This document shows positions 38,353 through 64,000 of a stretch of DNA of 64,000 bases, in pieces. The notes below the pieces were generated by a model that made no database searches, was not told the DNA's origin, and saw nothing but the letters and a program-made list of their open reading frames with translations. Positions within the stretch are counted from its first letter, which is position 1; each line of letters starts with the position of its first letter. Both the position numbers and the translations under genes were made by a program. Source of the DNA: Buxus sempervirens (Eukaryota; Streptophyta; Magnoliopsida; Buxales; Buxaceae); assembly GCA_947561395.2 (NCBI GenBank), contig OX387192.1, positions 4,154,001 to 4,218,000 of the forward strand, in the 5' to 3' direction.

Positions 38353-38600
38353 TGTATCCGGTCAAATATACCGGATACACTGTCTATCCTTCATGGCCGG
38401 ACTTGAAGGCCGGATACATAAAGATATTCGCGTGAAATTCACGCCACTTGGCCGACAGATTCGCAGCGGCATTAAATTTTAAAATGATTAAGTCATGTAT
38501 CCGGCCTGAGTTGCAGGATACAAAGGGAAGCCAGTGTATCCGGACTTGAAGTCCGGATACGAAGAGGCCTTAGTGTATCCGACCTGAGTTGCCGGATACA
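38353..38600. promoter_or_regulatory. Hairpin array upstream of the LTR A TATA box
   Basis: Five 27-bp hairpins of the form TGTATCCGG-N9-CCGGATACA start at 38353, 38392, 38496, 38535 and 38574; spacing within the groups is exactly 39 bp. Several are perfect, others have one to three mismatches. The last ends 11 bp before TATAAATA (38611). Position and phasing fit a U3 regulatory array. Confidence 0.85.
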
Positions 38601-39865: not shown

Positions 39866-40009
39866 GTGATGCGACAACTCAGGCCGGATCACCTGAGGCC
39901 TTAGCATATCCGGCCATCAAGGCCGGATAACCCATAGCCACTGTGTATCCGGCCACTCTAGCCGGATCACCTGCAGACCATGTGTATCCGGCCTGAGTTG
40001 CCGGATACA
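39866..40009. repeat. Second hairpin array in LTR A
   Basis: Four more units of the same 9-9-9 hairpin start at 39866, 39905, 39944 and 39983, again exactly 39 bp apart. The last is perfect. No TATA box follows closely. Confidence 0.85.
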
Positions 40010-42671
40010 CACAGAAAGTGTATTTTGTACATTGTTTGATCCTTGACCGAATTTTTGAGTGATTTGAACCAAAACCACTGAACCAACAGGGTTTCCGGGC
40101 CACCTGGAAACCCAAGATGGGACTTGGACCAACCAGTCCAACTTGGCTCACTAGTGGGCCTTCCAACGGGGCCCACCAAGCCCAATAAACACCAAGGCAT
40201 GCTAATTAAATAGCCTAAGCAAAAGTGAATCAATTGAATCAGGCGGGCCAAACCCAATGCGGCCCACCCGAGCCTTGCCATATGTATTAATGCATAAACT
40301 GCTTGGTTTGGCCGAGACCAAGGGCTAGGGCCTGTCGGGCCCGCCAAAAGCCCGCTAACCGAACCAAGTTGGGGTGCAAGCCCTAAATTCCAAGGAGCTG
40401 GGCTTTCAAGGCCCACAGCCTGGATCATGGGCCCCAAGCCCAATGACCAGCCCACTTTGGCACAATTAAATAAAGATAAACTAAAGAACATTCTGGCAAC
40501 CTTCATGGGCCCACCTAAGGGGCCCACAAACCAATCCGGCCCACCCTTGCATAAAAGTGATTTAATAATTCAAATCTAAACCTAAGTAAAATCAACTCAT
40601 TAACCAAAGCCCACAGGGCCTCATAGGTTAGACAGAGGCCCACCCAGGGTGCATGGGCTTACCCCAAGCCCACCAAGGATACCGTGGGCCTTCCAACAGG
40701 GCCCACCCAAACAGACCCAGATCACTTAAGTTAAGCAAAGATAAAATCCACTAAAGGGACCCACACCAACCCAAGTGGTCCCGCCAAGACCTAACAAAAA
40801 AGCATGCTGGATTAGGAATCGGGTGAAGACCAAATAAAAGCTGATTCAAATCAGGGAACCCACGGGACCCGTCATCCGACGGGGTGGATTGGGGTGTCTA
40901 CGGACTTCCCCAGCCCGCAACCGAGAACCGAGACTTAGAATCTCAAAGCCGCAGACCCAAAAGCCCTAAATAGACAAGATTAGGCACCCAGGTGTCCGCC
41001 TGTACCCCATCAGGCGGTGGCGACTTCGAATTTTCCCGTGCCGCGTTTCCGACGCGCGCACACCCTCCTTAGAGTAAGATTCGGCCAATTCTAAAATATT
41101 TTCTCTCCCCTTTTTTTTAATTAATTTGATAAACAACAATATAATAATAATAGTAATACCAATAATAATAATAATAATCTCAAAACTAAAATACAACTCA
41201 CCTTATATTTAATTCTCCGAGTTCTCCGGGTCACCCTGCAACTCTCTGGGTTGAACCAATTCCTCATTCCTTGCAATATTAATAATATTGATTAATTTAT
41301 TTATTTTATCCTAATTATTTTATTAATAAAATTTAGGATTTTACATTCTCCCCTCCTAATAAAAAAATTTCATCCTCGAAATTTACCTTGTGGTTCCTCA
41401 AATAAATATGGATATTTCTTCTTCATTTCAGATTCTAACTCCCAAGTTGCTTCTTCCATAGAATGATTTTGCCATAATACTTTGACAAGTGAAATCACCT
41501 TTGTACGGAGAACTTGCTCACGTTTATCAAGTATATGTACTGGATGCTCCTCAAAAGTCAAGTCCTCACGTATCACCAATGGTTCATAATCAATAATGTG
41601 ACTAGGGTCATGCACATAACGTCGTAGCATTGACACGTGGAATACATCATGAACTGCTCCAAATGAAGCTGGCAATGCTAAACGATAAGCCATTGGTCCC
41701 ACTGTCTTAATAATCTTAAATGGTCCTACACACCTTGGAGAAAGCTTCCCTTTCTTATTGAATCTTCTAATACTACGAGAAGGAGATACTTTCAAAAATA
41801 TCTTATCACCAATATCAAATTTCAAGTCCTGTCACCTAGTATCAGCATAACTCTTCTGACGACTCTGTGCTGCCAACAAACGTTGCTTAATTAGATTCAC
41901 CTTACTAACATTGTCTTGCACAAATTAAGGGCCTAGGTACTGTCTCTCACCAACTTCTTCCCAACAAACTAGTGATTTGCATGTTCTCTCATTTAGTGCT
42001 TCATACGGTGCCATTTGAATGCTTGCTTGATAACTGTTATTATAGACAAATTCTACTAAAGGTAGGTACTTACCCCAATTACCTCCTCAATCAAGCACCC
42101 AACACCGTAACATGTCCTCAAGTGTCGAGTGGTCCTTTCTGATTGTCCATCTATCTGTGAGTGATAGCTTGTACTAAATCTTAATTCTGACCCCATGGCT
42201 TTCTGAAAAGACTCCCAAAACTGAAATGTGAATCTAGGATCACAATCGGAAACAATAGACACTGGCACTCCATGCAATTTTACAAACTCATTTACATATA
42301 ACTCCATAAGTGAATTAAGTGGCTGGTCTTTTCGAATAGGCAAAAAATGAGTTGTCTTAGTCAAACGGTCCACAATCATCCATATAGCATCATGCTTCTT
42401 TACTGTAGGTGGTAAGCCAGTCACAAAGTCCATGGTGATATGCTTCCACTTCCATTCTGGAATAGAGAGTGGCTGAAGTAAACTTGAGGGTCTCATATGC
42501 TCAGCCTTTACCTGTTGACTACAAATTCAGGTACATCTCTCTTCATACCTGACCACTAATAAACTGCTTTCAGGTTTTTTTACATCTTGGTGCTACCTGG
42601 ATATACTGCATATCTAGACTTGTGTGCCTCTGTCAAAATCACTGTCTTAATCTCCTCATCTGCTAGAACAC

Positions 42672-44439
42672 TGTAGACACCCCAAATTGCACTACAAAAT
42701 GAGAAAATAATGAAAACATATAATTGGGATTTAAAACACCGTATTGTACCTACGGGCTAAGCGCGCCCGAATTTTATATACGGGCACGCAGCGCCCGTAA
42801 TACATATACGGACACCTTTGGACCGTAAATCATTTACGGGCACATCAGACTCGTGCGAGTTCTGTTCTTCTCTCGATTTCTGAGCCTTATCTTTAGTCCA
42901 ATATCCCTTTAAATGAGCGAATTATATATTTTATTCGTGCGAAATATCTTTGTGGATAAAGGATGGGCATGATCTTGTGTTTAACTCCAACTGAAACTCT
43001 ATCTTGCCAAACCTTGGACCAACCATGCCCCTGGGTTTGCCTATAAATAGAGGGCATTTCCTCAAGCAAAAGGCCACGAAAATTTGAAGTCCAAGAAGCT
43101 CCAAGAGAAGAGAAGAATCCCTGCTGCTCTGCCTGCTCAATCCAGGTAAGTCCCTTTTCCCTTTTATTTTCTGTCTTCAATTCTAGAAGTAATAGGATCT
43201 TCTCTATTGCTGTTGAATAAGGCCATATTTTATTGTGTATTCCTAAACTTGTCTCTAAGTACCTCAAGAGTCTTTCTAGCCGTAAAACGTGAAGAGAGAG
43301 CTAGGGGAAAAGAGAACAGGTGGATCCCTAGAATAGAACCCCATATCTGTTTTTCTCCTTTTTTTTAGAATAAAGCCTTTGATTGTGTTTATGTACCCAA
43401 ACCTATCTCTAAGTACCTCAAGAATCCTCTCTAGCTGTAAAACGTGAAGAGAGAACTAGGGGAAAAGAGAACAGGTGGATCCGTAGGGTAGACCCCCATG
43501 TGCTCAAATTTGTGAGATGTGGCTGCTTTGAATATCCTGATCATGTTTTAATTGTTTTTATGTTGAATCTATGAATCTATGATGATTATGATGTTTATAG
43601 CATGAGATCCCCACTTTTTGATAAAATTTGGATTTTTCACATATTTGCACCTATAGCACTGTTTTCGTGATTTTTGTGATTTTAGGCTATGATCTTGGAT
43701 TTATCATGATCAATATGGTAGATTTGGATCCAGAAGCCTGAAAGTAACTTCTAGGGTTTCATGATATGGTTTTTGAGTTGTTTTTCATTATTGAGAGAAG
43801 ACCCTACGGTCTAAGTTCTCCCCTTTTGATGTTTTTTCATCAACGTGGGTATTTTTGGTTTTTATTTTTTGATTTAATGTGAAATTTGGGCTATATCTAT
43901 GTCCTGGACTATTCAAGTTCAAATCTGCAATATTTTATAAAAATCATATTTTTCTAGATTTCTAGAATTTAACTTGAAGCCAGATTTTTGGATTTTTCAC
44001 TTTAAATTGATTTTATTTGATTTCATCTCAATTTTGTTTTGATCATGAAACCATAGGAATGGTATGATCATATTTGAAAGTTCTGGATCAATCAGGCTAT
44101 TCGTATGAAAAAACCATACATCTGTGTCTTTTTGTGATTTTTGTGATTTTTATAGCAAGCCTTTTTCCTTTATTTTAACATGAACAATACCTGGCAACCA
44201 CCTTGTGTAAATGAATAGGGGTGCCTAACACCTTCCCCTGTTCATAATCTAATCCCCTTACCCATCTCTGGTTGTTTTTTTTAAGAGGGTTATTTTTACC
44301 CTAAAATTGCCTTTTGTGCTTATTTAATATCTTGGTGTCTATTCACACCTAAATTTAAATTGAATGGTGGCAACTCTTTGTTTAATTTAATCCCGTGTGA
44401 TGATTAGGAAGTCATTGGATTGATTTTCCATGTCTCACA
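42672..44439 (+). mobile_element. Solo LTR C, same family as the Tat element at 51209
   Basis: The 1768-bp segment runs from TGTAGACACCCC to CCATGTCTCACA and is flanked by a perfect AACAC duplication (42667-42671, 44440-44444). It sits in the Tekay-like integrase. It matches the inverse of LTR D (51209-53017) throughout. TATA box TATAAATA lies at 43042 and a candidate donor (CAATCCAG/GTAAGTCCC) at 43145. A block of about 125 bp is repeated inside it (43232-43355, 43381-43504). Confidence 0.88.
42751..42855. promoter_or_regulatory. 28-bp phased hairpin array in LTR C
   Basis: Four 21-bp units start at 42751, 42779, 42807 and 42835, exactly 28 bp apart. The unit is TACGGGC-N7-GCCCGTA; the second is perfect. 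With 7-bp arms, loops and spacers, a half-site recurs every 14 bp in alternating orientation. The array ends 187 bp before the TATA box. Confidence 0.88.
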
Positions 44440-47400
44440 AACACAGATCCGTCTTTTGAATCTCAACAAACCTTCTCGATCAGAAAAGTCCTTAGTGGTC
44501 TCAGAATCATTCCTTAATAACTCCCTAGTAACAGTCAACTTAGGATCTAACAACTGTCTCTCCCTGATCCTCTGAATCAAGTCAGGCTCTACTTGAACTC
44601 TAGCCACTCTGATAACTCCATCCCGGGGTAAACTAAACTTTCCATTCTAATCACGAACTGCTTCCACCAAACTATACTGGCCAGTCATAAACGCAGCTAA
44701 TGTGGCAATAAAAATTTCATTAATACTGCTTAAGGCATCTACAACTACATTTGCCTTGCTTGGATGAAATTATAGCGTAAACTTGTAATCCTTCAGGAGA
44801 TCCATCCATCTTCTTTGTCTTATGTTGAGATCTTTTTGTGAAAACAAATACCTCAAATTCTTACGATCTGAAAAGATCTCAAACTCAACCCCGTATAAGT
44901 AATGCCTCCATAACTTCAAAGCGAAGACTATGGCTGCCAATTCTAAATCGTGAGTGGGGTAATTCCTTTCATGAGGTTTCAACAACCTGGAAGCATATGC
45001 TACTACCCAACCTTGCTGCATTAACACACATCCCAAACCAACCTTGGATGCATCACAATACATAGAAAAAGGCTCATCCATGGAATTAAAAGGGCTTAAT
45101 AACCCAGCAGGCTTAGTGAGCTCAGCTTTATGGATGGGTAATGGACTTAATAGTCCAGCAGGCTTAGTGAACTCAACTTTATGGGCCTGACAAATCTCAC
45201 ACATCCTTATGAGATTTCGAACCCCACTCTTCATCCCCTTCGAATAAAAAGTAGCTCTTATGCGATATAAAGTTTTGTGGAGACCATCAAGTGTGTGTGA
45301 ATGGTATTCCTGTATGATGGTGGGAATTAAAGGGGAATTCTCTTTAAGATAGATGCGGTTCTTAAAGAAAATAATACCTTCTTTAAAAGCCCAAGGTCCA
45401 AGTGCTTCTCCTTCCATAATTCTCTTGACTAGTTCTTGTAGTTCGGTCTCTTGCTTTACTTCAGCTTGCATGGGTTCCACCCAATGAGGAATTGGTTGAG
45501 AGAGAGCTTTAAGTTCTCCTTCATATTTTCTTGATAGTGCATCTGCAACCAAATTCTCCTTTCCCCTTTTATATTCTATTTCAAAATCATACCCGATTAA
45601 CTTGACAAGCCACTTTTGTTGGGTTGAGGTGGTGACTGTTTGATGCAAGAGAAATTGCAAGCTTCTGTGATAAGTCCTCACTACAAATTTTGAGCCTAGC
45701 AAATATGGTTGCCATTTTTGTACAGCACTAACCAATGCCAATAACTCCATCTCATAAGTAGAAAGGGTTAAGTTTTTTTCCTTTAAGAGCTTGGTTAAAG
45801 AAGGCAATGGGCCTATCTTGTTGCATCAAAACTACCCCAAGGCCTGTGCCAGAAGCATCACACTCCACTACAAAGGGTAGAGAAAAGTTCGGTAGGGCCA
45901 AAACCGGCCCATGGGTCATTGCCTCCTTGAGTTTTTGAAATGATTCTTCAGCTGGTGGGCTCCATTTGAAAGCATCCTTCTTGAGCATTTGTGTAAGAGG
46001 TCTTGCTATCTCTCCATACCCTTTTATGAACTTTCTATAATACCCCGTGAGGCCCAAAAAACCTCTCAATCCCTTCAGATTATTGGGCTTAGGCCATAAC
46101 ACCATCGACTCAATTTTTTTAAGATCCATTTCCACCCCATTTGTTGAGATCACATGCCCCAAATAATTAACTTTATTGAGCCCAAACTGACACTTCTCTC
46201 TCTCTTTTTTTTTATAAAAAATTGATGATCATGCAGCCTTTGAAATACCCTCTCAACATGCTCCAAGTGTTCTCTCTCATTTATGCTGTAAATTAAAATG
46301 TCGTTGAAAAATACTAGCACAAACCTTCTTAAAAATTCATGACATACCTTGTTCATTGTAGATTGGAAGGTAGATGGGGTGTTGGTCAATCTGAACGGCA
46401 TGACAAGGAATTCGTAATGTCCCTGGTGAGTGTGAAAGGCCGTCTTTTCCACATCATTGGGGTGCATCCGAATTTGATGATATCTAGAGTGAAGATCTAA
46501 CTTGGTGAAGAGACATGCAGCATGCAACTCGTCCAAAAGCTCATCAATGACTGGTATTGGAAACTTGTCTTTGATTGTCACTTGATTTAAAGCACAGTAG
46601 TCAATGCATAGTTGCCAAGAGCCATCATGCTTCTTAACCATGAGCACTGGAGATGAGTAAGGGCTTGTGCTTGTCCTAATTACCCCAGATTTAAGTAGGC
46701 CATCCACAATCTTCTCAATCTCGATCTTTTGATAATGGGGGTATTTGTAAGGTCTTACATTTATTGGACCTATGTTAGGCTTCAAAGGAATTTTGTGATC
46801 TTCATTTCTCTGCGGAGGCAATCCTTTAGGCTCAGAAAATAGGCTGCTGTACTTATTTAATAGAGCATGCATGTTGGGTGTAGCTGGCCCCATGTACAAC
46901 TGATCAAGACTTAAGGAAATAGTCCTTAAGTGTAGCACGTAAGCCCTCTTTTTCTTTTTTAAACCCTTTGAACAATCATGACCTTCAGAGAACCTATCTC
47001 ATGGCCAACTTTCCCCATTCAACTCCACCATCCTTCCTCTCCAACAAAACCTCATCCACAGCTCGTTGAAGTCCCAAGTCACTGGTCCAAGTTGCTGCAG
47101 CCACAAAGTGCCTAGAACAGCATCACATCCTTCTATTGGAAGAAGGAAAAAATCAACCACAAATGGTTCCCCTTGAACCCAGATTCGAACACCCCTGCAA
47201 ATGCCTTCCCTTGAAAGTTTCTCTCCATTGGCAACGAATACTGAAAAACTTTCTTTCTCATACTTAAGTTGCATCTATTCAGAAGTTGCATCTGTTCACC
47301 CACTCAGCCATTCACTCACATCGTCTTGGGTGTGTGGGTGCCTGTAATGGCATGCAAACTGATCTCTGGCATGTCTTCCTTGTTTTCTGGTGGTACCTCT

Positions 47401-47545: not shown

Positions 47546-49527
47546 TGTAAGCACCTCATTTTTGTACCCCTCTTAAAAGGCAGAAAGAAAGCAAAATCCT
47601 AAAAGAAAGGCCAAAACCCTAAGGAGCAAAATGTGACTTTTAGCCTGAGCATAAATTGATTGCCATACTCTATCCCAATGAGTAGAGAATCCCGTCACGG
47701 TTCCAACGCAATTAAGTTTACAGGAATCGAGGCCCGGATGGAGAAGGTATGAGCAAAACAATCTGAGGGCAAATTAGTCAAAGTTTAAAATATCTTAATT
47801 AAACTAATTAAGATAAATGAGAAATAATAAAAAATTGAGGAGTCTAATTCATCCGAGTGGGCGGCTGAGTCACCTCAGCCGTCAACTCAACCATAATGGG
47901 GGGAGAAAAAGTTCGCGATCTCATATGGTGTGCAGTTAATTTTTTCGGCCACCGCTCGCGTGAGCCAATCAGGGCAAGTGGTGCACGAAAAGTAACTGCA
48001 CTTACAGTGCGGTTACATTTCGCGTCAGTTTGGGTCTAACCAATTTGTCCCCCTATTTAATGCTGAAAGGACGAGGCCAAACCGCACTGGATGTGCGGTT
48101 TCAACCAAACCGCACTGGATGTGCGGTTTCAACCAAACCGCACTGCATGTGCGGTTTTGTCTCTGTGTTCTATAAAAAACAAATTTGAACAGTAGACAGA
48201 GGATGGTTGATTTTCTTCTGATCTTCCTCACACTCCTCTGCATCCTCAACCTCCGAACAGTCCCTTCTTCTCCTCAGAAGCCTTTAAACCTACAAAGATC
48301 TCTCCTTTCTCCCTTCTTCCTTCATCTCCACCCATAGAAGGAACCAAAGCTACTATTGGTGCTTGGAAGTTGTGCTCCAGCCACTGTTGGAGCTTCAAGG
48401 GAGGTCATACACACCACTCCAGGGCCCTTAACCCCCAAGGTAATGTTTCTCATCACTTCTTACCTCATATATGTGAAAATGAAGGTGTTTTGATCATGTG
48501 CAAATGGTTTGTATCTCCTTGCTTAAAGGTATCCTTTAGCATGTGTTTTTTAGCTCACTTTTCTTTCATTTATGCTATATTGAGGAAATCCCATGGTAAG
48601 GGGAAGCATACGAATGGCTTCAAGGGAGGGAGAGGTCCCATTTATGCATGATTTAATGGCCTTTAGTGTACTATTTTGCTAAGTGATTTGCTCCATTCAA
48701 ATGGGAGAGTGTTCCCCCTTTGTGTGCTCATATTTTGTATCCCACATTAATCTCCCTCTCTTTCCCTTCTTTGAATAGCCTTGTTCATGTGATCATGTGA
48801 TCCAAGAGCGGATCGTATAAGCCATTGAGGGTTAATTCTGAATCCCACAACAAGTCACCGAGATTGCTGGAAGCTAGGTGAGCAGGCCCCAGTAGCAGAT
48901 TTGGCCGTTTTGGACTTTTGGGTCGGAACCGCATACACAGAGCGGTTCAGGCCCGACCGCAGTTGTTCCGCAGTTAAACCTCAGCAAGCATAAAAAATCC
49001 TTTTTCTCGACCCAAGCCTGTCCGGTTCGATCCAATTTTTATTAATTCAAACCATTTTGAACTTTTGGGTCAACCCAAGTCTTTTTCTGGGGGCTTGGGC
49101 CCAATAGTGCTTTGTTGGCCTTCCAATGAGGCCCATATCAGACCAACATCACTTGGATAAAAAGATAAAATCAAATAAAAAGAAAGGAACCCACACCACT
49201 TTGGTGGTCCCCACCTAGACCTGAAATGAGTGTGCATGCTGGCTTAGGAAACCAGATGAAATAGCATTGAGCTGACTCATAACCAAGAAGACCCATGGGA
49301 CTCGTCACCCGACGAGGTGGACCGGGGTGTTTACGGAGTTCCCTGGACCGTAACTGAGACCCTACTTAGAATCTCAAGCCTCAGACCAAATTAGACAAGC
49401 TTAGGCACCTAGGTGTCCGCCTACACCCCATAAGGTGGTGGCGACTCCAACCTTTCCCATTTTACCCTTTCCTGAGGCACGCGCGCTCCCGCGCGCCTCG
49501 TCCATGCGGCGTTCCGACGTGCGCACA
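47546..49527 (+). mobile_element. Solo LTR B, Tat-like (TGTAAGCACCTC family)
   Basis: The 1982-bp segment runs from TGTAAGCACCTCATTTTTG to GACGTGCGCACA, flanked by a perfect GTTGA duplication (47541-47545, 49528-49532). TATA-like TATAAAAA lies at 48171, a hairpin array just upstream, and a candidate donor (CCCAAG/GTAATG) at 48439. Ends match solo LTR A, but the U3 hairpins differ in sequence. It is inserted in the gag of the chromovirus-like element. Confidence 0.87.
48079..48157. promoter_or_regulatory. 28-bp phased hairpin array in LTR B
   Basis: Three 23-bp hairpins AAACCGCAC-N5-GTGCGGTTT start at 48079, 48107 and 48135, exactly 28 bp apart and almost identical. The last ends 14 bp before TATAAAAA. 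A related GCACTTACAGTGCGGTT lies further upstream at 47999. Confidence 0.88.
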
Positions 49528-51208: not shown

Positions 51209-53017
51209 TGTGAGACATGGGAAAAATCAATTTAATGATTTCCTCAATCATCACACGGGATTAAATAAAACAAAGAGTCGCCACCATTCAATCTAGGTGT
51301 GAATGGACACCAAAATATCAAATAAGCACAAAAGGCAAATTTTAGGGCAAAATATCCCTCCAAAAAAAAAAAACAACCAGAGATGGGAAAGGGGATTAAG
51401 TTATGAACAGGGGAAGGTGTTAGGCACCCCTATTCATCCACACAAGGTGGTTGCCAGGTATTGTTCATGTTTAAAATAAAGGAAAAAGCTTGCTATAAAA
51501 ATCACAAAAAAGGCAAAAATATATGGTTTTTTTTCATATGAATAGTCTGATTGATCCAGAACTATCAAACATGATCATACCATTCCTAGGGTTTCATGAT
51601 CAAAACAAAATTGAGATAAAATCAAATAAAATCAATTTAAAGTGAAAAATCCAAAAATCTGGCTTCAAGTCAAATTCTAGAAATCTAGAAAAATATGATT
51701 TTTATAAAATATTTCAAAATTGAACTTGAATAGTCCAGGACATAGATATAGCCCAAATTTCACATTAAATCTGAAAATCAAAACCAAAAATACCCACGTT
51801 GATGAAAAACACCAAAAGGGGAGAATTTAGACCGTAGGGTCTTCGCTCAATAATGAAAAACAATTTAAAAACAATTTCATGAAACCCTAGAATTTACTTT
51901 CAGGCTTCTGGATTCAGATCTACCATATTGATCATGATAAATCCAAGATCATAGCCTAAAACCACAAAAATCACGAAAACAGTGCTGTAGGTGCAAATAT
52001 GTGGAAAATCCAAATTTTATCAAAAAGTGGGGATCTCATGCTATAAACATCATAGATTCATGTTATTCATTCAGATATATCATAAAAAGCATTAAAACAT
52101 GATCAGGATATTCAAAATAGCCACATCTCACAAATTAGAGCACATGGGGGTCTACCCTACGGATCCACCTGTTCTCTTTTCCCCTAGTTCTCTCTTCACG
52201 TTTTACGGCTAGAGAGACTCTTGAGGTACTTGGAGATAGGTTTGGTTACACAAACACAATCATAGGCCTTATTCTATGAAACAAAGAAAAAAACAGATAT
52301 GGGGTTCTATTCTAGGGATCCACCTGTTCCCCTTTCCCCTAGTTCTCTCTTCACGTTTTACGGCTAGAGAGACTGTTGAGGTACTTAGAGACAAGTTTAG
52401 GAATACAAAAACAGATATGGCCTTATTCTACAGCAATAGAGATGATCCTATTACTTCTAGAATTAAAGACAAAATACAAAGGGATAGGGGACTTACCTGG
52501 ATTGAGCAGGCAGGCAGCAGGAGTTCTTTCTCTTCTCTTGGAGCTTCTTAGAATTCCTTGGACTCAAAATTTCGTGGCCCTTAGCTAGAGGAGAGAGCCT
52601 CTATTTATAGACACACCTAGGGGCAAGGCTGGTCCAGAAGGATATGGCCTGGTCTTTAAGATAGAGTGAAATACAGAGATAATGCCCATCCATAGCCAAC
52701 CAAGGTGGCTTCAGCGAATAAAATATTTAATTCGCTCATTTAAAGATATATTGGACTAAAGATAAAGCTCGGAAATCGAGAGAAGGACAAAACTCGCACG
52801 TGTCTTTAGTGACCGTAAATGCACTACGGTCCAACGGTGACTGTATAGTTGCTACGGGCGCGCCTGACCGTAGATTGATTTCGGGCGTGACCGGCCCGTG
52901 AATAGAATACGGGCAAAGCCTGTTTATTCATTTTTTATGCATTTTTGACCTGTTTTAAGCTCTAATTACATGTTTTTATTATTTTCTCATTTTGTAGTGC
53001 AATTTGGGGTGTCTACA
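51209..53017 (-). repeat. LTR D, 3' LTR of the Tat element
   Basis: On the minus strand it runs from TGTAGACACCCC to CCATGTCTCACA, 1809 bp, and aligns with solo LTR C. TATA box (minus strand TATAAATA, 52609-52602) and a candidate leader donor (CCAG/GTAAGTC, exon end 52497) hold the same relative positions as in LTR C. The internal duplicated block of about 120 bp is also present (near 52145-52262 and 52300-52420). Confidence 0.87.
52797..52928. promoter_or_regulatory. 28-bp phased hairpin array in LTR D
   Basis: Units start at 52797, 52825, 52853, 52880 and 52908, 27-28 bp apart, each of the TACGGNC-N6/7-GNCCGTA form; the outer ones have one degenerate arm. The array ends 188 bp upstream of the TATA box, one base different from LTR C. 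Confidence 0.85.
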
Positions 53018-53355
53018 GCTGCCCCCTCTTTGCTGGTAATTGGAACCAATTACAAGCAGAGAGCGAAAAGACCCATCAATTGCACTTTCTGAGATTTTTG
53101 TATAATCAATTGCACTTTGCAAGGATTAAATGGATGATTTTTGAAAAAAAGAATTGATTGTGGAAGATTTGCTAAGAAATCCCTCAGCTTAAGGGTCAAA
53201 TCTTCCTCTCTCCTCTCACTGAGCACTTGTGGGCTATGAAGTGAGATTTGAGACAAAATTTTTTAAACAAAAGTGGGTAAGGTGGCAATCCTTGCAACTT
53301 ACAACTAATATAAACATTAATCTCTTGAAAAAATTGAGAAAATAACAAAAATATG

Positions 53356-53473
53356 CTATTTTTGGCTTCGCCCGTATTTTGCTTACGGACAGATACTGCC
53401 TGTATGTTGTTCACGGGCGACCGGGTCCGTATTGCTTTCACGGGCGTGTGATGCCCGTATTGATGTTACGGAT
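53356..53473 (+). promoter_or_regulatory. 28-bp phased hairpin array before antisense gene 1
   Basis: Units start at about 53356 (right arm only, GCCCGTA), 53384, 53412, 53439 and 53467 (left arm only), with the LTR family's heptamers and 28-bp phase. It precedes the probable 5' UTR exon of the gene at 54883. No canonical TATA box is evident downstream. Confidence 0.8.
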
Positions 53474-54882
53474 TTTATTCTCCTTTTTAAGACCGCGATC
53501 GCGAATTTTCTTCTTCTGCTCGCATTTTGCCCTAAAATCCTCTACTCCCGCACTCTTCTTTCCGGTTCCTGCTTCTTCTTCCCCAAGCGTCCGACTTCAT
53601 CTCCGACGAGCTTCTGTGACTTCACCGGCGACCACTGTTCATTCCGGCAACTCCTATCATCTCCGGTGATTACTATTTTTCTGACGAGCCATCCTATCTC
53701 CAGCGACTGTTCCTGGATTGAGCATTGCCGTGGCTGTGACCAAGTCATTGGAGTGCTTCCTCTTCTCTCAATCGACTGTAATCATCCCTTGAGGTTTAAC
53801 AACATTTCCTATTTCGATCGAAACAGGTAAGTGACCGAACCTTAGTTCATGCAAAACAGTGATATAATCTGGACGAATCTGGTTTATGCACGAACTTTGA
53901 CTTGCTGTTTGTGGTTTGAAAATAATCCCCAATTCTTCATTTAGTATCTGGAAATCTGTATCTGCAACCAGAAATGAATCTTTACTTAACTTGTTTCCTC
54001 TGGTTTTTCTGTTTGGCCAATACTTATTCCCAGGCTATCAATTTTGATCCGGGGTTCCTTGGTGAACAATTTCTCAAACTTTTTTTTTTTCTGTTACATA
54101 ACACTGAATGATTCTTTGACTCTGAATATATGATGGTTTTTCTGGTTTGTCCTCTGCAAATGCTCAATTCATGTTCAATTTTCTGCATTCTTCAGTTTTT
54201 AGGACTGTTGTGCTGCCTTACCATGAAATGCTGATATGGAGCAATCATGTTTTTATTGGTGCTGTATTTTGCATGATAGCAGACTTTTGTATGATCAAGT
54301 CCAACTTCCGGGCTATTGCTTGAAACTTTACTTTGGCCATGGGCTACTAGATAATTGCTCACCCATGCATCTTTAGAAACTTGATTTTGACTTGCTTGGA
54401 TCTATACTTTAGGAGCTGCTAGGCCAATGATTTTGACTCCATCAAGCCGATCCTCAATCCAACTGACAACCATTATAGATTTCTGAATCTATAACCGAAT
54501 AAGCCTAAACTTAATGAGTATTGATGTTATCACAACCCCAACTTAAATAGGCTTTATGTCCTGAAAACAAAAGAGAAAATTAAAATCAGTCCTTAACCTC
54601 TTTATTCACATTTTTTCTTTCTTTTTTTTTTCATATAAAGAGAATATACAAGAAGCCTAAAACTTCCTATATATAATTTTTATATATTTTCCTAATTGAG
54701 GTAAATATCACACTAAAATTTCTCCAAACAGAAAATTAAACTCCTTAGTTGACTTCTGATTTGATTGGGAATTTTTGAAGTGCCTTCTTTCCTGCTAATC
54801 AATTAAACTTGGTTAAAATAAAGATTAAGCAATTAAAAATTTTAACAAGAATAATTAACCAACTCCCTGGTTTAAACCGTAG
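53474..54882 (+). other. 5' UTR exon and leader intron of antisense gene 1
   Basis: An exon-like stretch ends CGAAACAG/GTAAGT at 53826/53827. The next acceptor, AAACCGTAG, ends at 54882 directly before an ATG. The 1.06-kb intron is T-rich near its 3' part. The open frames at 53379-53830 have no known domain and are taken as untranslated. Confidence 0.5.
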
Positions 54883-57719
54883 ATGGCCCGTCTTCGATCA
54901 GCTTCCCGAGATCCTGCAGATGAGCCTTCCTCTTCGAGGGTTAGGCGAGATCCTGCTGATGTGGCCTCGTCTTCGAGGGCCGAGAGGGATTCGGATTCTG
55001 ATGTCCCTGATCTTCCTTCTGGGGATTCGCGTGAGGCGACCCCAGAGGTATACTCTAACCTTTCTGAAATTTCATATCCTTTCCCAAAATACACCTTCCT
55101 GATTCTTTCCTCTCTTTAATTATTTTCTTTTAGCCGGCTGTTGAGGCTTCTGGCAGAGATAGGAGCCGTAGCAGGCGTCGAGCTGGAGGCAGAGATGGAG
55201 GCCTTGATGAGGGCCATAGAGGAGGCCGTAGAGGGGGCCGTGGCAGAGATGAGGCCAGGACCAGAGTTGAGATCCCTGAGGAGGTGGCTGCCCAGATTAG
55301 GGATACCGATCTTTTGCATGGCTTGAGGAGTCATCCCTCAGCATGTATTAGGGCGGATATCCCTTTGGAGTATCCTATGTCCCACTATAGAGGGAGCTGG
55401 GCTAGCTTCATTAGATTTTTGGGAGCTTACAGTTCGGCCTATCGTAGGGAGCTAGGCTTGTATGGATTTGGCATATTTATTACCATCCCGGACGTTCGCT
55501 TGGATCGAGCCCTCATTGCCGCATTGCTTGAGAGATTCTTCCCGGAGACTTTGAGCTTCCACTTCCCTGATATTGAGATTGGGATCCGGCCTTCTGATTT
55601 CACGCTCATCACCGGGATTAGGATGATCGGTGATGTTATTCCTGAGATGGCGATGCCAGAGGCTGATGAGGTTGCAGCTTATCTTGGATATATTGTGCTG
55701 CCTCCTGAGGCATGGGATCAGGGGAGAGCGAGATTGTCTCTGACATGGTTGAGAGAGACTTTCAGGAGAAGGCAGTTTGGCCAGCTTGCTGCCGGTGATC
55801 ATGTTTTCCCCTTCGCCTTCTGATTCCTTTTTCTGTATATGATGGGATCTTGTTTCTTCCCGGAGGACACGACTTCAGTTAGTCCTCATTTCCTGAGCTT
55901 ACTGGGAGATCTTCAGCGGGCGAGGAGGTATGCATGGGGTCCACTCATTTTTGGTACTATTTTGGCCGACCTTCGCCGATCAGTGAGCGGCCTCTCTACT
56001 TCCAGAGGGGCTGGAGTTGGGTGCAGATTTTCTGTCCTTTTCTGCAGGTGAAATGTCTATTTCCCTTCTCTTTCTTTCTCTTTCTCTTTTTTTTTTTATC
56101 TCTCATTTTCTATTCCTCTAACTCTTTTCTTCTTTTTGCAGTTTTTTGCTAGGGTTTATATACCCTATTTCCGTCCTACCTCTACGATGCCTGAAGAACG
56201 TATCCTATGGCACGTAGATGGTGTCATGTAGAGCACGACTCTGAAAAGAGTCGTCCCAGGTCCGCCCGGGCCCACTTGGACAGGCTATACCGGTCTGAGG
56301 TAATCTTCTATAATTTCTTTACTTTCTTCTTTTCTTTTCTTCTTGAGTTACATATCTGATGTCTTGTTCTGTTTTTCAGCTATTTGTCCCCAGGATGGAG
56401 GACATTCATGAGGTGCTGGCCCTGCAGGCAGCCAGAGATGATGCATTTGTCCCTGACCAGAGACGACAGAGATACCAGTTCTTTATTGGTCAGCTGGGCA
56501 GCATCTGGTACTGCGGCGAGCGCTTCTTCTTTCAGCATGTGGGAGAGCCGCGGATTCCTGCCATCCCGCCAGATACTACTCCTTTCTATCCTCCTATGCC
56601 TGTTGATCCTGCTCAGTTCCTAGATTGGACTGAGGCAGAGACATTATTGGAGGAGGGTGACTATGATGCCTGGTTCAGTCGAGATTCAGTTGGGTGCCTC
56701 ATGCCACCTATGCCTGTCCGTGGCGGAGTCACTGAGATTGGAGGGGTAGTGATTAGGGCTTATGACACTACGGTATGCCTTCTTCCTTTTCACCTTTCCA
56801 TTTTCATTTCATCTGAATTTAGCATTTTTCTGACTTCTTTCTTTTCTATTTCAGGAGGCCCAGTTGGCAGAGATCCAGTCTCGATATGCTGATCTAGAGC
56901 GCCAGCGAGATGCTGCGATCGCCGAGCGGGATGCCCTCTATATTACCATTTTAGACCTCCGGGGGCAGCTAGCCAGAGCACAGGGCCAGGAAGGTCCATC
57001 TGATGCACAGGACCAGGCGGGTCCATCTTATACTCAGGTTAATTTCTTCTTTTATTTCCATTCCTGCTCTTGTATTTGTTTGTCTTGTTCTGACTGAATT
57101 TTTCTCTTAGTTTCAGGAGGACACAGCCGGCCCTTCTTCACCTACTTCACCCGTGCCTATGCATTTCCGGGATGAGGTATTTTCTGTGGTGCGGGTGGAG
57201 TTCGTGACTTCTCCCAGTCCAGTAGAGGTTCCTGCAGCAGAGCCCGACGTCGAGGCTGATATTGTACCTGCTGCTGAGGATGTGCCAGAGTCTGCCCCAG
57301 TAGCTGAGACTGCTCCTGCTGCATCTGCTGATGTAGATATGGATTCGGCTATGGACGCTGCTGTGGTTGGGCCTACCGTGGAGGCTGTGGTGATGGAGGA
57401 GGCTACAGCTGATCCTGTAGAGTCCGGTCCTGATGCTAATGTACCTGAGATCTCTGCTCCTGCTAGTCCTGCTATGGAGGATGCCGAGGAGACGCATGCT
57501 GCTGTTGATACGTCAGTGGATTCTTCCCGTACTGATTCTGATGTAGATACTTCAGGGTACGTCCCTCCTGATCATCCCACTGCTGGCCTTGTGCCTTTAT
57601 ATATGTGGCATGATATTCAGTCTGTTTTGAGCAGGATGACGCGTAGCACAGCCCGCAATGTTGTGCGGCATGTCTTTGAGCGCAGGCGATCTTCAGGTCG
57701 TGGTCGAGGCAGAGGATGA
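54883..57719 (+). pseudogene. Antisense gene 1: plant-mobile-domain-like protein
   Basis: This gene is carried by the Tat element on the strand opposite to pol. Exon-like blocks with GT-AG borders and T-rich introns are 54883-55047, 55134-56047, 56142-56299, 56380-56772, 56855-57037 and 57117-57719. In order they hold an RS/RGG-rich N-terminus, a plant mobile domain-like region (SWASFIRFLGAYSSAYRREL, LLERFFPETLSFHFPDIEIG, FTLITGIRMIG), a coiled coil (56855-57000), a long Ala/Glu/Asp-rich acidic region and an RG-rich tail. Plant mobile domains occur in MAIN-type host proteins and in transposon-borne genes. The copy looks mildly degraded, with about one or two breaks. Its function is unknown; nucleic-acid binding by the RG-rich ends is a guess. 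Confidence 0.65.
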
Positions 57720-58223
57720 GGCCGTGGCCGTAGGGGTGGACCTGCATAGACATTAGATTAGGATTCTTCCATGTACATTTGTATTTTTTTGGCAAAAGTG
57801 ATGTAAACATTCATATATATATATAAAAGAAGTTTGATTTATTTCCATTTGTGTTCTTTTCTTCTTTATTTTCAGTATTTATTACCTGATGAATGTTAAA
57901 ACAGGGACACGTGAAGCTTAGGGAAACAAAGAAATTAAAACTTCCCACTTTTTTTGCATTTTTTCGAAGGAACCGTACTTAGACTACGAGCAAGCCGTGC
58001 CCATAAAGTTACTACGGGCGCACTCTGCCCGTGAAGTTTCCACGGTCAAGGGTGTCCGTAGTTCTTATACGGGCGAGCTTTGACCGTAGTATAATTACGG
58101 AATTTACTGCCTTACGATTTTTTCTATATAAACTCCTAGGGAACGTCATTGTGACACTTTTATTGGTTGGAAAACTCCCTGAGCACGTCTTTTCTCACTT
58201 TCCTTGGCTTCTTTGGCGCTTCC
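57720..58223 (+). promoter_or_regulatory. Intergenic promoter of antisense gene 2
   Basis: After gene 1 comes a hairpin array: units start at 57985, 58013, 58041, 58068 and 58096 (last one a half unit), 27-28 bp apart, with TACGGGC/GCCCGTA arms. A TATA box TATATAAA lies at 58125-58132, about 25-35 bp after the array, and the first in-frame ATG at 58224. The layout is that of a complete promoter. Confidence 0.82.
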
Positions 58224-60001
58224 ATGGCTTCCCCTATGCCGCTTTCTCCTGCCGTTGAATCTCCTCCTGCAAGACAACCTATTAGATCAAAACCTCCTAA
58301 TCTCACCAGGTATAACATTGTGGACTCTTTCTATGACAGGTGGGTTAACTCCATGACCCTTGATGAGGAGATTCGTTGGGATTCCATCCACTTAGGGCAT
58401 ATCCTACACCTCCCTAAAATTCCCTTTAAGTGGGAAATTATTGAAGCTTTGATTGGACACTGGGTACCTGAACTGAACCTTTTTCGGTTTGATGATAAAG
58501 AGATGACTCCTACCATAGAAGAAATTGAAACCATCCTTGGCCTAAGATTTTCTAAAAAAGTTGTGAACCCCCCCCCCCCCCTAAAGCTTAGTTATAAAAA
58601 AGAGGCTTCCACTTTCTTGGGTATAGGGAAGAAGGACCTAGGAAATTCTGATGCACTATTGACCTTGTCCAAGACCTTTTTGACTGAAAAACTTCTGAGG
58701 AGTGAAGACAAGGACGCTAGGTTTAATGCATTGACCCTAGTAGTGGTCAATCAGCTGCTTTTTCCACGGGGTGATGACCAGGTTGATTTGGCTCTCATCT
58801 CAGTCATCTGCCAGGTTAGGGAACGTAAGAGATTGGCCCCTATGATCCTAGCAGAGATATACCAGGCCCTTACTGACTGCTATTTCAGGAAGAAGAAGCG
58901 CTTCCTTGCCTGCGCCCTATCCTACAGGTAAAAATATACATATATATATTTTTTTCTTTTCTTCTTCTCTTTTTTTTTTCTCTTCTTCTTCTTTTTTTTT
59001 TTTTCTTCTTTTTCCTTTTTCTTTCTCTCTCTTTTTTTTTCTTTCTTTTTTTTTCTCTTCTTTTTTTTTTCTTTTTGGAAATAACTTGAAATACCCCTTT
59101 TCTGCAGCTTTGGTTGCTTGACCACCTTAGCCAGGTTGAAGAAATAAGTCGCCGCTTCTTTCCAAGATTGAAAGTTCCTGTTTTGATGAGCAATAGAGGA
59201 TGTCCTAACATCCAAGGTGGCAAGCAAGGATGGTTCACTTTCTTGGGTACTCTCCAGGATGATCAAGTGAGATGGCCTGGCACTTATCAGCCCACTCCAG
59301 AGACAGTGATCAGCTTTAGAGATAAAAACTTTTTGGTCCTAGCAGGCTTGAAATCTGCTGTTCTCTATCTTCCTTTGAGGGTTCTTCGGCAGTTTAGAGC
59401 GATCCAGGGGATTATGATCCCTACTGGATATGAGAAGCTTTTAGGGCCACTTACACCAGCCTCCATGGGGCTAACTGCTCAATTAATGAAAGAGTGGTCC
59501 TATGTCCGTTTTCTGCAGGGTCCTGTCTTTTCAGAGTCCCATGTGAAGGACTATCACTTCTGGATCAAAGAACAGGTGCAGAGTCATGCCCCAGTACCAG
59601 AGGATCCTCCTGCAGTTCTTCCTCCTACCTATGAAGATATTCTGGAGTCAGAAAGGGCAACCCATAAGCGGCTTCAACAAATATGGGTACGGGAGGCTCA
59701 AGAACTTAGGATAAAAGTCCTTGTTCTGGAGAGGAAGCTTGAAGAGCAGAAGTTTGGCCGCATTGCCATGGAGAAGAAACCTGAAGAACAAAGGCAGGCT
59801 CGTCGCTTTGAAGTCCGAGTGATGCGGAAGAAGTATCAGGATTCCTTGGCCGACCTTAGGGCGTTGAAGATTAAGCTTTCTTTTTCAGATGAGGTCATCT
59901 CCTTTTTGAGTGATCCTGATGCAGAGGGTGCTTCTGGAATCATTGCAACTCAGGCAGCTAGGATTAGGGAGCTTGAGGAGCAGTTAGGGAGTAGGGATTA
60001 G
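58224..60001 (+). CDS. Antisense gene 2: DUF7745-like, coiled-coil protein
   Basis: Two exons (58224-58928 and 59108-60001) with a T-rich GT-AG intron give an open frame of 532 codons that looks whole. The ATG at 58224 (MASPMPLSP) is the first in frame after the TATA box at 58125. The first half resembles the DUF7745 region of plant transposon-linked proteins (LHLPKIPFKWEIIEALIGHW, PTIEEIETILGL). The last 110 residues are a charged coiled coil (EERATHKR to RIRELEEQLGSRD). The protein has no signal peptide or membrane segment. It belongs to the Tat element and lies antisense to its pol. A role in regulating the element is possible but unproved. Confidence 0.7.
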
Positions 60002-60927
60002 ATTCTTTTATCTCTTTTTTTTTTTTCATTCATTTTTTTTCTTACTTTTATACAAAAGCAAACTCCATTAATGGAAAGACAATAGATTTAATTCAAAAAT
60101 AGGTTTTATATTATTGGCCTCAGAATTCTCAGATGCTTATAAAAACAGAAGTTTTATGAAAAAGTATTTGATTTTTCATCACTGGCCAAAGTATAGTTTT
60201 TTTTTTGAAAGCTGATCCAAAACACTTAATCACATATAATTAAAGGAATTAAAATCATGTTGAATAATGAAAAGGGTAGTCCAAACAATAGGGAGAGACC
60301 AAATATGTCTACCCCGCGACCTTTAGAATCATCCCCTAATGGTTTTTCCTTCATGATGGACCCTGCTAATCTGCTCAGTTTCCAGTGCTCATGCTGATTT
60401 GAAACTTAGACCACATGATCAACTCAACCCTTGATTCTTTTTTTTTTTGCTGCCCTTCTTGCCCCTAGTGCCAATTACGGTTTTCACTAGGGTTGGCCTC
60501 TGCATTCCGTCATCACCAATCTTACTCTGAAAGTTGAATGAATATACTAAAATCACCGAGGGCTTAATAATAGGACGAAACAAAGGCTAAGCTCGGTTTA
60601 TGAAAGAAAATGTATTAAAGGCTCAATAATTTTCTAAGTGTGAAAAAATGGGTCAACTGGACTTACAGTCATGGTGAATTCGATACCATTCCTCTTCTTT
60701 TGTATTTGGCTTTCATTTGCCCTTATATATTTTTTTTCTCTTTTTTTTTCTCATTTTTTTCTTTTGCCCCTATTGGCCTTGCCCTTATTGGCTTTGCCCC
60801 CGTATAAGACTGTAGGTCCAGTTTAGGTTTAACAAAAAGACGGACAGGCTCAAATTGGCTTGACTAGGGATATAAATTTTGGGATATAAGGAAAAATGGC
60901 CTCAGATCATTTCCTAGTAATATTCAT
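60002..60927. other. Spacer between antisense gene 2 and pol
   Basis: The two converge here: gene 2 ends at 60001 and pol at 60928 from the other side. The stretch is T-rich with no frame; a CCTATTGGCCTTGCCC-like short repeat lies at 60766-60800. It probably holds both 3' ends. Confidence 0.6.
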
Positions 60928-62889
60928 TCATGGGAAATATCTTTTTACTGCATCAGAGTTAATTGGCTCAGGAAAATCCTTCCCATCCATTTCTGTTAAG
61001 ATGAGAGCACCCCCTGATAGGACCTTATTGACTATATAAGGCCCTTCCCAATTTGGTTTGAACTTTCCACGAGGATCTTCCAAAAAGGGTAAAATCTTCT
61101 TTAATACCAAATTTCCTTCTTGGAAAGTTCTGGGCTTCACCTTTTTATTGTAAGCCCTGGCCATCCTCTTCCGATACAATTGGCCATGACTAAGTGCCTT
61201 CAAACGCTTTTCTTCTATTAAATTGAGTTGATCATGCCTGGACTGTATCCATTCAGCTTCTTCTAATTCAGCTTCCATTAGCACTCTTAGTGAAGGTATT
61301 TCCACTTCCACTGGTAAAACTGCTTCCATTCCATAGACTAGGGAATATGGGGTTGCCCCTGTAGAAGTTCGAATCGAGGTTCTGTAAGCATGTAGAGCAA
61401 GTGGCAGCATTTCATGCCAATCTTTAAAACTCACCACCATCTTTTGAATAATCTTCTTTATATTCTTATTCGCTGCTTCCACTGCCCCATTCATCTTTGG
61501 TCTGTAAGGCGCTGACTTGTGGTGGGTAATCTGAAATTGTTCACACATCTTCCTCATGTCTTTGTTCTTAAGTTTTGAAGCATTGTCTGTTACTATGGCA
61601 CTTGGCAAACCATAGCGACAAATGATGTTGTGCTTTAAAAACTTAAGAACATGGCTACTCGTAATGTTTGCATAAGAAGCCACTTCTACCCACTTGGTGA
61701 AGTAATCGATTGCTACAAGTATAAACCTGTGTCCATTTGATGCCTTTGGAGAGATCATTCCAATGACATCTATACCCCACATGGAGAAGGGCCATGGAGA
61801 TGTCATACTATGTAATTCACTTGGCGGTGCATTCTTGTTATCCGCGTACACTTGGCATAAATGACACCTTTTGACGTGTATATAGCAATCGTGCTCCATA
61901 GTCGACCAGTAATATCCCAATCGCAGAATCTTCTTGGCAAGCATATGCCCATTCATATGGGGTCCACATACTCCTCCATGTACCGTTTCAACTATCCTTT
62001 CTGACTCAGTCTTTGCAACACATCTGAGTAGGATATCGTTATGTGATCTTTTGTACAACTGCCCACCACTTAATAAGAATTGACCGGCTAATCTTTGTAT
62101 TGTTCTTTTCTCTGTAGAGGTGACATTTTCTGGCAGGCTTCGATCATTTAGGAAGTTCTTAATGTCTTGAAACCATGGTACTTCTTCTTCTGGGGTTTCT
62201 TCTAGAACAAGGCAGTAAGCCGGTTCATCCCTGACTTCAATTTCCAATGGTCTAATATCAACACCTTCTGGCATACTGACCATTGAAGCCAATGTGGCTA
62301 AAGCATCTGCAAACTGGTTTTTGGCCCTTGGCATATAATTGAAGGAAATTCGAGTAAACTTGGTGCTTATTTCTTCCAAATACTGGTGATAAGGGATCAA
62401 TTTATGATCCTTGGTTTTCCATTCACCAGTTGTTTGGAAGATGATAAGACTCGAATCCCCATATACGTCAAGTTCCCCTACTTCATGGTCTAAGGCAGCT
62501 TGCAACCCAATTATACATGCCTCATACTCTGCTATATTGTTCGTGCATTGAAACCTTAGTTTTACTGCGATCGGGAGATGTGCCCCATCTGGCTTGATCA
62601 GAATAGCCCCTATTCCATTTCCATTCATATTGGCGGCCCCATCAAAAAACATTTGCCATGAGCTTTCACCTTCTTCCTCTTCAGCAAACAGGATTGCCTC
62701 ATCAGGGAAGTTGGTCTTTAAGGGTTGGTATTCTAGTAAAGGGTGTGCAGCTAAGTAATCTGCAATGGCTTGACCCTTAATGGCCTTCTGTGTGATATAG
62801 GTGAGGTCAAATTCAGAGAGTAACAACTGCCACTTTGCTGTTCTGCCAGTTAAAGCTGGTTTCTCAAATAGATACTTCAAAGGGTCCAT
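60928..62889 (-). mobile_element. Tat pol: second RNase H and integrase
   Basis: One open frame of 653 codons. From its start: the end of the RT-linked RNase H (WQLLLSEFDLTYITQKAIKGQAIADYLA), a second RNase H (MFFDGAANMNGNGIGAILI, CTNNIAEYEACIIGL, YGDSSLII, ADALATLAS), the integrase zinc-binding region (HVKRCHLCQ), the catalytic core (GIDVIGMISP, IVTDNA, PKMNGAVEAANK) and a C-terminal end. The paired RNase H domains are characteristic of Tat/Ogre elements. Confidence 0.88.
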
Positions 62890-63988
62890 TCGGGATATCA
62901 GTAAGGTGGAATGACTAAGGAAATAGTGCCTTAGTCTCTGAGTTGCCCATACTAAAGCACAACAAGTCTTTTCTAGAGGGGAATATTTTGCTTCATATTC
63001 TGTAAATTTCTTATTCAGGTAGTAAATCGCCCTCTCCTTTCTGCCTGTATCGTCATGCTATCCTAAGACACACCCCATTGACGTCTCTAAAACAGACAAG
63101 TATAAAATCAATGGTCTTCCTGGAGTTGGTGGTACTAGCACAGGTGGGTTCAATAAATACTCCTTTATTGTGTCAAAGGCTACTTGGCAATCATCATTCC
63201 AGACTGTCGGGTTATTATTTCTTAAAAGTTTGAAAATTGGTTCACAGATAGCGGTGAGCTATGCTATGAACCGGCTTATGTACTGAATCCTTCCAAGAAA
63301 ACCACAAACTTCCTTCCCCGTTTTGGGTGATGGCATTTCAATGATTGCTCTGGCTTTAGCTGAGTCAATCTCAATTCCCTTTCTGCTTACTATAAAGCCC
63401 AACAATTTTCCTGATGTAGCCCCAAAGACACATTTCGCAAGGTTAAGTCTTAGACTGTATTTCCTAAGCCGGTTAAACACCTTCTTCAAATTGATCAAGT
63501 GGTCTTCTTCTTCACATGACTTGGCTATCATGTCATCCACATAAACCTCCATCTCCTTATGGATCATATCATGGAATAAGGCTGTCATAGCCCTCTAGTA
63601 GGTTGCCCCAGCGTTCTTAAGTCCAAATGGCATGACAGTATAGTGGAAGGTACCCCAAGGTGTAATGAAAGCCGTTTGGACTTGCCTTATTCAAGTCTCT
63701 GTAATCTACGCACATTCTGACCTTTCCATCCTTCTTCGGCACTGCTACTATATTTGCAAGCCATTCAGGGTATGTGGAGACTGCTAAGAATCCTGCTTGG
63801 AACTGCTTAACTACTTCATCTTTGACCTTTAAAGTCCATTCCGGTTTCAACCTTCTCAGTTTCTGCTTAACTAGCTTGGCATCTGGTAGAATAGGTAGCC
63901 TGTGCACCACCATATCTGTGTCTAACCCCAGCATATCCCGATACGACCATGCCAACACATCATTATAATTAGCCAAGAATCGTATCAT
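62890..63988 (-). mobile_element. Tat pol: reverse transcriptase, partial
   Basis: The RT is readable in two frames (63988-63617 and 63588-63259), with VRMCVDYRDLNKASP and EVYVDDMIAKS, the latter holding the YVDD catalytic motif. The frame continues toward RNase H at 62890. It is broken in a few places, and the 5' end is beyond the window. Confidence 0.85.
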
Positions 63989-64000
63989 TTCTTCCCGCTG

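Follow-up and report, generated by a model that had tools for sequence, protein, structure and literature searches.

Phased arrays of alternating CGG half-sites in the LTR and before two antisense genes of a Tat/Ogre-like retrotransposon of Buxus sempervirens: candidate operator sites

The stretch of Buxus sempervirens DNA analysed here (64,000 nucleotides, hereafter the window; assembly GCA_947561395.2, contig OX387192.1, positions 4,154,001 to 4,218,000 of the forward strand) is of plant type, with gene families found only in plants and with retrotransposons. At its right end, on the minus strand, is the 3′ part of a gypsy retrotransposon, element A, which carries phased arrays of short alternating half-sites in its long terminal repeat (LTR) and before each of two genes antisense to pol. 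The 3′ LTR (51209-53017, minus; 1,809 bp, TGTAGACACC...ATGTCTCACA) is adjoined by a polypurine tract (53018-53035, minus; CAGCAAAGAGGGGGCAGC). The pol region lies at 60928-64000 (minus) in three separate open reading frames (ORFs), for reverse transcriptase (RT), an RNase H-like domain and integrase, and the ∼8-kb region between pol and the polypurine tract holds the two plus-strand genes. The 5′ LTR and gag lie outside the window. A solo LTR of the same family, family A, lies inside another gypsy element at 42672-44439 (plus), flanked by the target-site duplication AACAC; it is 88% identical to the 3′ LTR over a 1,714-column alignment.

The pol ORF at 60928-62889 (minus) contains, by Pfam, the RNase H-like domain RVT_3 (residues 82-200), followed by H2C2 and the integrase core, and that at 63259-63588 (minus) encodes RT. 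Of the remaining ORF (63617-64000, minus), the part 63617-63988 matched nothing in Pfam at E up to 1, and no relative of the main pol ORF was found in the viral contigs or genome contigs searched. Between its RH and integrase domains, the Tat/Ogre group has an additional RNase H domain (PMC6317226). Element A fits this group of Ty3-gypsy, since it has an RNase H-like domain ahead of integrase and genes with a plant mobile domain (PMD); RVT_3 stands in the place of the additional domain, and the original RH ahead of it was not separately matched. According to the available part of the same survey, PMD occurs in 57% of Ogre elements and TRP28 in 23% of Retand elements (PMC6317226). The extra ORFs of element A carry PMD, not TRP28 (PF04195), which had no match at E up to 1 in the antisense-gene pieces scanned.

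The preliminary description of this DNA had proposed a Tat element with two genes opposite to pol, and both genes were indeed recovered on the plus strand with matches to the PMD family. Gene 1 (54883-57719, plus) encodes a PMD protein with arginine/glycine-rich stretches in several exons, whose limits were set by eye, and is preceded by a likely 5′ untranslated region intron at 53827-54882. Its piece 55284-55823 matches PMD (PF10536) at E 1.1e-8 with 35.1 bits, just over the cut-off of 34.9, a longer piece scores 34.3 bits and the piece 55824-56048 matches under the cut-off (E 1.2e-5). Scans of the first exon and other pieces of gene 1 gave PMD alone, plus a few weak matches (E of at least 0.1) far under the cut-off. 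Gene 2 (58224-60001, plus) encodes a DUF7745/PMD protein with a charged C-terminal part, judged by eye to form a coiled coil. Exon 1 matches both DUF7745 (E 1e-18) and PMD (E 1.1e-9) over the cut-off, and exon 2 matches DUF7745 weakly and under it (E 0.028). The single intron begins at 58928, and four of the acceptors tried are in frame and leave the gene open, with products of 504-524 residues. The PMD regions of the two genes show a distant similarity (25% over 77 residues, E 2e-5 in a single comparison). Two PMD clades, A1 and A2, have been found only in gypsy elements (PMC5418596); that genes 1 and 2 represent them is our guess. Five antisense pieces had no match in NCBIfam, a prokaryote library, gene 2 exon 1 had no relative in viral contigs, and no paper on DUF7745 was found in the open-licence literature. 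Homopolymer runs of 28 G at 4723-4750, 17 G at 26427-26443 and 14 C at 58568-58581, the last in gene 2 exon 1, are possible assembly or slippage trouble spots.

The family A arrays consist of half-sites of the TACGGGC type whose orientation alternates at every step on a 14-bp lattice (rarely 13); up to two mismatches were allowed in half-sites placed on the lattice. One array lies in the U3 of the 3′ LTR (52811-52914; eight half-sites in four units, seven of the eight under a stricter rule), one before gene 1 (53370-53473; eight half-sites, four units), one before gene 2 (57971-58102; ten half-sites, five units) and one in the solo LTR (42737-42841; eight half-sites, four units). The LTR and both gene promoters had been described as sharing one array: all three do bear arrays, but these are separate arrays of one type. 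Before gene 2, a TATA-like box (58125-58132, plus) follows 23 bp beyond the array.

Chance does not produce such arrays. TACGGGC occurs 11 times in the window against 1.2 expected. The longest chain of half-sites was one in 16, two in 276 and three in 8 of 300 dinucleotide shuffles of 51209-64000, and two in 57 and three in 3 of 60 shuffles of the window. Even in 58 viral contigs chosen because they contain one TACGGGCN7GCCCGTA, the longest chain was two in 47, three in 9 and four in 2. Within GCCCGTA-N7-TACGGGC pairs the spacing is 14 bp in 17 of 17 cases, as compared with 14 bp in 10 and 13 bp in 3 of the 13 intervals between pairs (Fisher P = 0.07), which suggests that the dyad is the unit.

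To what extent the arrays are kept was assessed in two ways. Over 35 lattice positions, half-sites carry 10.5 bits of information and spacers 0.7 bits; in this count position 58110 was left in though off-motif, and 28 of the 31 spacers were used, three 6-bp spacers being dropped. Because half-sites were placed by the lattice, part of the 10.5 bits is due to selection of the sites, and a comparison of the two LTR copies is less exposed to this effect. Each half-site of the solo LTR has one counterpart in the 3′ LTR; 7 of 56 positions differ in these half-sites, as against 20 of 42 in the spacers (P = 2e-4; of the seven pairs of spacers, one of unequal length was dropped). Downstream of the array the two LTRs are 88% identical (1,395 of 1,582 aligned positions), so the half-sites diverge at about the rate of the LTR and the spacers much faster; it is the spacers that make the array region more diverged than the rest of the LTR. 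No signal came from CpG retention, which was 9/14 within the array and 14/20 outside it (LTR ends being placed within 3 bases). Leaving aside the pair of LTR copies, spacers of different arrays showed no likeness beyond shuffles in four of five comparisons, and the fifth, between the 3′ LTR and gene 2 arrays, was borderline (52 of 1,000 shuffles). The arrays of the element thus have half-site and phase in common, and little else.

This pattern makes it extremely unlikely that the arrays are functionless tandem-repeat expansions spread within the element by recombination. Such an origin would agree with the three copies of the array repeat in another LTR family of the window (family B, below), which are 98% alike; yet the family A arrays share little beyond half-sites and spacing, and neutral decay would not spare the half-sites. 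A role in DNA or RNA structure is also very improbable, whether through transcribed hairpins feeding small interfering RNA or packaging, through cruciforms or through nucleosome positioning. All arrays are inverted repeats, and by general LTR biology the U3 of the 3′ LTR is within the genomic RNA. However, neighbouring family A half-sites are no more complementary than random pairs, with 25 mismatches within units against a random mean of 24.7, and 17 between units against 19.0, and the arms are of 7 nt with a dyad every 14 bp (arms in families B and C are longer). Base pairing is therefore not what is kept. An RNA hairpin, considered as the principal explanation, was rejected because neighbouring family A half-sites do not covary. 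Recognition of double-stranded DNA by a protein is then the natural reading.

Two further LTR families in the window carry arrays of the same geometry, a feature absent from the preliminary description. The solo LTR of family B (47546-49527, plus; target-site duplication GTTGA) has six alternating half-sites, AACCGCA/TGCGGTT, on a 14-bp lattice at 48080-48156, with a TATA-like box at 48171; its main copies being near-identical tandem repeats, it is less informative on flank conservation. The solo LTR of family C (37657-41062, plus; target-site duplication CCCTC) has palindromes of TGTATCCGG/CCGGATACA with a period of 39 and six half-sites at 38496-38600, with a TATA-like box at 38611, and further copies at 38350-38420 and 39880-40010. 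In LTR B, LTR C and gene 2, the TATA-like boxes thus stand 11-23 bp beyond the arrays. Stretches of ∼189 bp near the 3′ ends of LTRs B and C are 79% identical, and their half-sites differ. Families B and C may be Tat-like as well, judging from the 5-bp duplications and from a GGTGGCGACT stretch seen by eye near the LTR 3′ ends (the solo A copy, GGTGGCAACT, differs by one base).

The geometry common to the three families is CCG-N11-CGG. When CCG-Nk-CGG was counted over the window, k = 11 gave the highest number, 26 matches, of which 13 are in the A arrays, 5 in LTR B, 8 in LTR C and none in the remaining 58 kb, where the mean is 1.7 matches per spacing; this pattern was picked after the arrays had been examined. 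In 300 shuffles each, LTR B gave a mean of 0.17 matches (largest 2) and LTR C 0.34 (largest 3). Exact CCG-N11-CGG is found in 13 of the 17 family A units. Two matches, at 38167 and 49309, are without the flanks of their family and may have arisen by chance; the TACGGGC at 38272 in LTR C was attributed to chance. Other prominent spacings were CCG-N39-CGG (13 matches), CCG-N37-CGG (10), CGG-N11-CCG (13) and CGG-N35-CCG (13), of which 11, 9, 12 and 11, respectively, fall within the same arrays or LTRs, as their periods predict. Seen from the CGG, the flanks are family-specific: TA-CGG-NC in A, TG-CGG-TT in B and C-CGG-ATACA in C, where seven units retain them, some with changes, around a variable inside. 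The six main arrays of the three families all have even numbers of half-sites (8, 8, 8, 10, 6 and 6). A general scan for alternating arrays gave scores of 35-43 to the A, B and C arrays, and the best scores in controls were 24, 26 and 27; since these were only three block-shuffled sequences, the chance estimates for family A rest on the chain shuffles above. Other scores over the controls, up to 32 for a GGTACC repeat at 26500-26822, 29 at 26814-26955 and 28 at 27841, are from other repeats.

We infer that the arrays are bound by a protein, that the binder is dimeric and that it co-regulates the promoters concerned. The arrays would be operator sites, comparable to upstream activating sequences, for a dimeric and probably cooperative protein that reads the CGG core. 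The predicted binding unit is CCG-N11-CGG with family-specific flanks, which in family A becomes GCCCGTA-N7-TACGGGC, units standing side by side. Because the same kind of array is present in the LTR U3 and before both antisense genes, a single protein would be expected to co-regulate the gag-pol promoter and the two accessory-gene promoters. Its most likely source would be the element itself, as one of the two PMD proteins, that of gene 2 being the better candidate here because this gene is open in the present copy; it may act as an autoregulatory activator or as an anti-silencing factor. That the binder is the element's own product is conjecture, and so is the sign of its effect. We favour an element-encoded PMD protein that binds the arrays and co-regulates three promoters, tentatively and at slightly less than an even chance, on account of the autoregulatory layout and of flanks that differ by family, as in the VANC systems of VANDAL transposons. 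Two PMD proteins of the host, MAIN and MAIL1, influence both transcription and silencing (PMC7156037, PMC5418596).

The self-regulatory loop put forward in the preliminary description accordingly survives as anatomy, in the layout of a shared operator; its other half, an antisense protein as binder, does not gain the same footing, no DNA-binding domain having been recognised. Several other observations weigh against the favoured reading. Gene 1 is interrupted in this copy by in-frame stops at 55821 and 56229, which leaves only gene 2 open. In the Pfam and NCBIfam scans, no known DNA-binding domain was recognised in the antisense-protein pieces; a sequence search of solved structures, made with gene 2 exon 1 only, found no relative, and a single-sequence AlphaFold model of that exon was discarded at a mean predicted local distance difference test score of 38.3. 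The best TATA-like box of the LTR A promoter (CTATAAATAG, 52604-52609, minus) lies ∼200 bp downstream of the array (in the solo LTR, 42775 and 42923 fit the pattern too), and for gene 1 the stretch 53360-53700 yielded no TATA-like box. In family C, CCG-N11-CGG does not hold for the first unit of the array (38496), and an odd number of CCGG cores, seven, is clustered at 39880-40010. Finally, palindromes with the same CGG-CCG core occur in the LTRs of Sirevirus elements that have no ENV gene (PMC2829016).

The last point bears on a different kind of binder. A host transcription factor may dimerise on CCG-N11-CGG, the element having spread its sites to its promoters so that all obey the same host signal. 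Plant LTRs with repeats for host factors are well known, as in ONSEN and Tnt1, and three LTR families of the window have the unit in common. In the available account of Sirevirus palindromes, 12 of 13 Copia elements have a CGG-CCG core, and the palindromes are in the LTR and before ENV in the nine elements that have this gene, and in the LTR also in the four that lack it, so that they recur in another superfamily (PMC2829016). A database comparison in that work mainly recovered sites of stress factors, but no single common factor (PMC2829016). Given these palindromes, the preliminary description was right to keep host factors as alternative binders, which are almost as credible; a host factor is possible, though we would not bet on it. 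Against it, the flanks differ by family (TACGGGC, TGCGGTT and CCGGATACA) and are largely kept within A and C, which a single factor of fixed specificity would not need. Moreover, the Sirevirus cores run from CGG to CCG and, as read from the printed consensuses, are 4-6 bp apart, not CCG-N11-CGG, and the unit is absent from the remaining 58 kb of the window, host gene included, a small sample.

Sirevirus offers a close likeness: palindromic repeats with flanks that vary by element are clustered there upstream of the TATA box of the LTR and of an extra gene (PMC2829016). Element A likewise has a palindrome with a CGG-CCG core upstream of the LTR TATA-like box and of extra genes, gene 1 being without a TATA-like box. 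It differs in that element A is gypsy, by its domain order and Tat-type RNase H, with cores 11 bp apart rather than 4-6, whereas Sirevirus is Copia, its extra gene is ENV and the available account describes no 14-bp alternating lattice (PMC2829016). Ogre and Retand elements resemble element A in a long internal region with extra ORFs (PMC6317226, PMC11963269, PMC7264820), and a regulatory role has been suggested for the TRP28 proteins of Retand (PMC11963269); element A, in contrast, has two PMD-type genes and not TRP28. A phased array shared by the LTR and each gene goes unmentioned in the available parts of these reports (PMC6317226, PMC11963269, PMC7264820).

Among DNA transposons, the regulator TnpA of Spm/En binds repeated CCG-containing motifs, in direct and inverted orientation, by its own promoter, and is both activating and repressing. 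The likeness lies in repeated CCG-containing motifs beside the element's own promoter, although Spm/En is a CACTA DNA transposon and TnpA a different protein; the logic proposed for the PMD protein would be like that of TnpA or of VANC. VANC motifs are short, family-specific and fast-diverging, and stand in tandem repeats of non-coding parts of the element; binding by VANC21 was demonstrated by chromatin immunoprecipitation and electrophoretic mobility shift assay (PMC5735166, PMC10398659). Here, too, a short family-specific motif is repeated in non-coding parts, at three promoters, with different flanks in B and C, and the element encodes a protein family. By contrast, VANDAL elements are DNA transposons with motifs YAGTATTAY and AGTTGTCC/AC, without a CGG dyad. 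Over the cut-off, the antisense proteins match only PMD and DUF7745 in Pfam. The VANC-like manner of action proposed earlier is thus retained for its logic, family-specific flanks on one dyad geometry resembling VANC motifs, and not as homology.

MAIN and MAIL1 belong to the same domain family as the antisense proteins and regulate transcription and transposon silencing, but they are host genes and, in the available parts of these reports, direct DNA binding is not demonstrated for them. A promoter motif, DOWN, is enriched in genes that depend on them (PMC7156037, PMC5418596), and it has been speculated that captured transposon PMDs take part in anti-silencing (PMC5418596).

Other features of the LTRs and of the window were also noted. 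Both LTR A copies contain a 115-bp direct duplication downstream of the promoter, its copies ∼150 bp apart (52144-52258 and 52299-52413 in the 3′ LTR; 43228-43344 and 43378-43499 in the solo LTR); being present in both, it is probably older than their split. The solo LTR A lies nested in the other gypsy pol (41370-46938, minus), which it interrupts with a clean 5-bp duplication; the part 41370-41825 of this pol has a Tf2-1-like SH3 domain and a chromodomain match just under the cut-off, and the part 44770-46938 has RT and RNase H. The clearest host gene among the ORFs examined consists of Sel1-repeat exons at 15295-16598, which we take to be HRD3/SEL1L-like. A 206-bp stretch at 29836-30041 matches its own reverse complement at ∼90% and is possibly a foldback element or one resembling miniature inverted-repeat transposable elements. 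The stretch 26500-26955 consists of 22/45-bp tandem repeats around a GGTACC core, different in kind from the CGG arrays.

Antisense ORFs in Tat elements, PMD in Ogre, the suggested regulatory role of TRP28 and the anti-silencing speculation on PMD are already in print. Among the open-licence papers listed, we found none that describes a phased array common to the LTR and the antisense genes, and none with a CCG-N11-CGG unit that several LTR families share. The available texts assign no molecular function to the Tat antisense genes or to PMD itself (PMC7264820, PMC5418596). A broader proposal, which we regard as possible but rather doubtful, is that Tat/Ogre PMD proteins may be sequence-specific dimeric DNA-binding regulators of the elements that encode them, docking on CCG-N11-CGG, with flanks that have diverged between families and co-evolve with the protein in a lock-and-key fashion.

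The finding ties the unexplained Sirevirus palindromes to a second superfamily and bears on whether LTR retrotransposons carry their own sequence-specific regulator, as VANDAL transposons do. A defined 21-bp site at the LTR and at both accessory promoters permits a direct and cheap test of DNA binding, and because three LTR families of the window share a single unit but differ in its flanks, genomes can be compared to test whether site and protein co-evolve. If the broader proposal is true, it would provide a function for PMD across flowering plants, host MAIN and MAIL1 included, and would explain the role of these relatives in transposon silencing.

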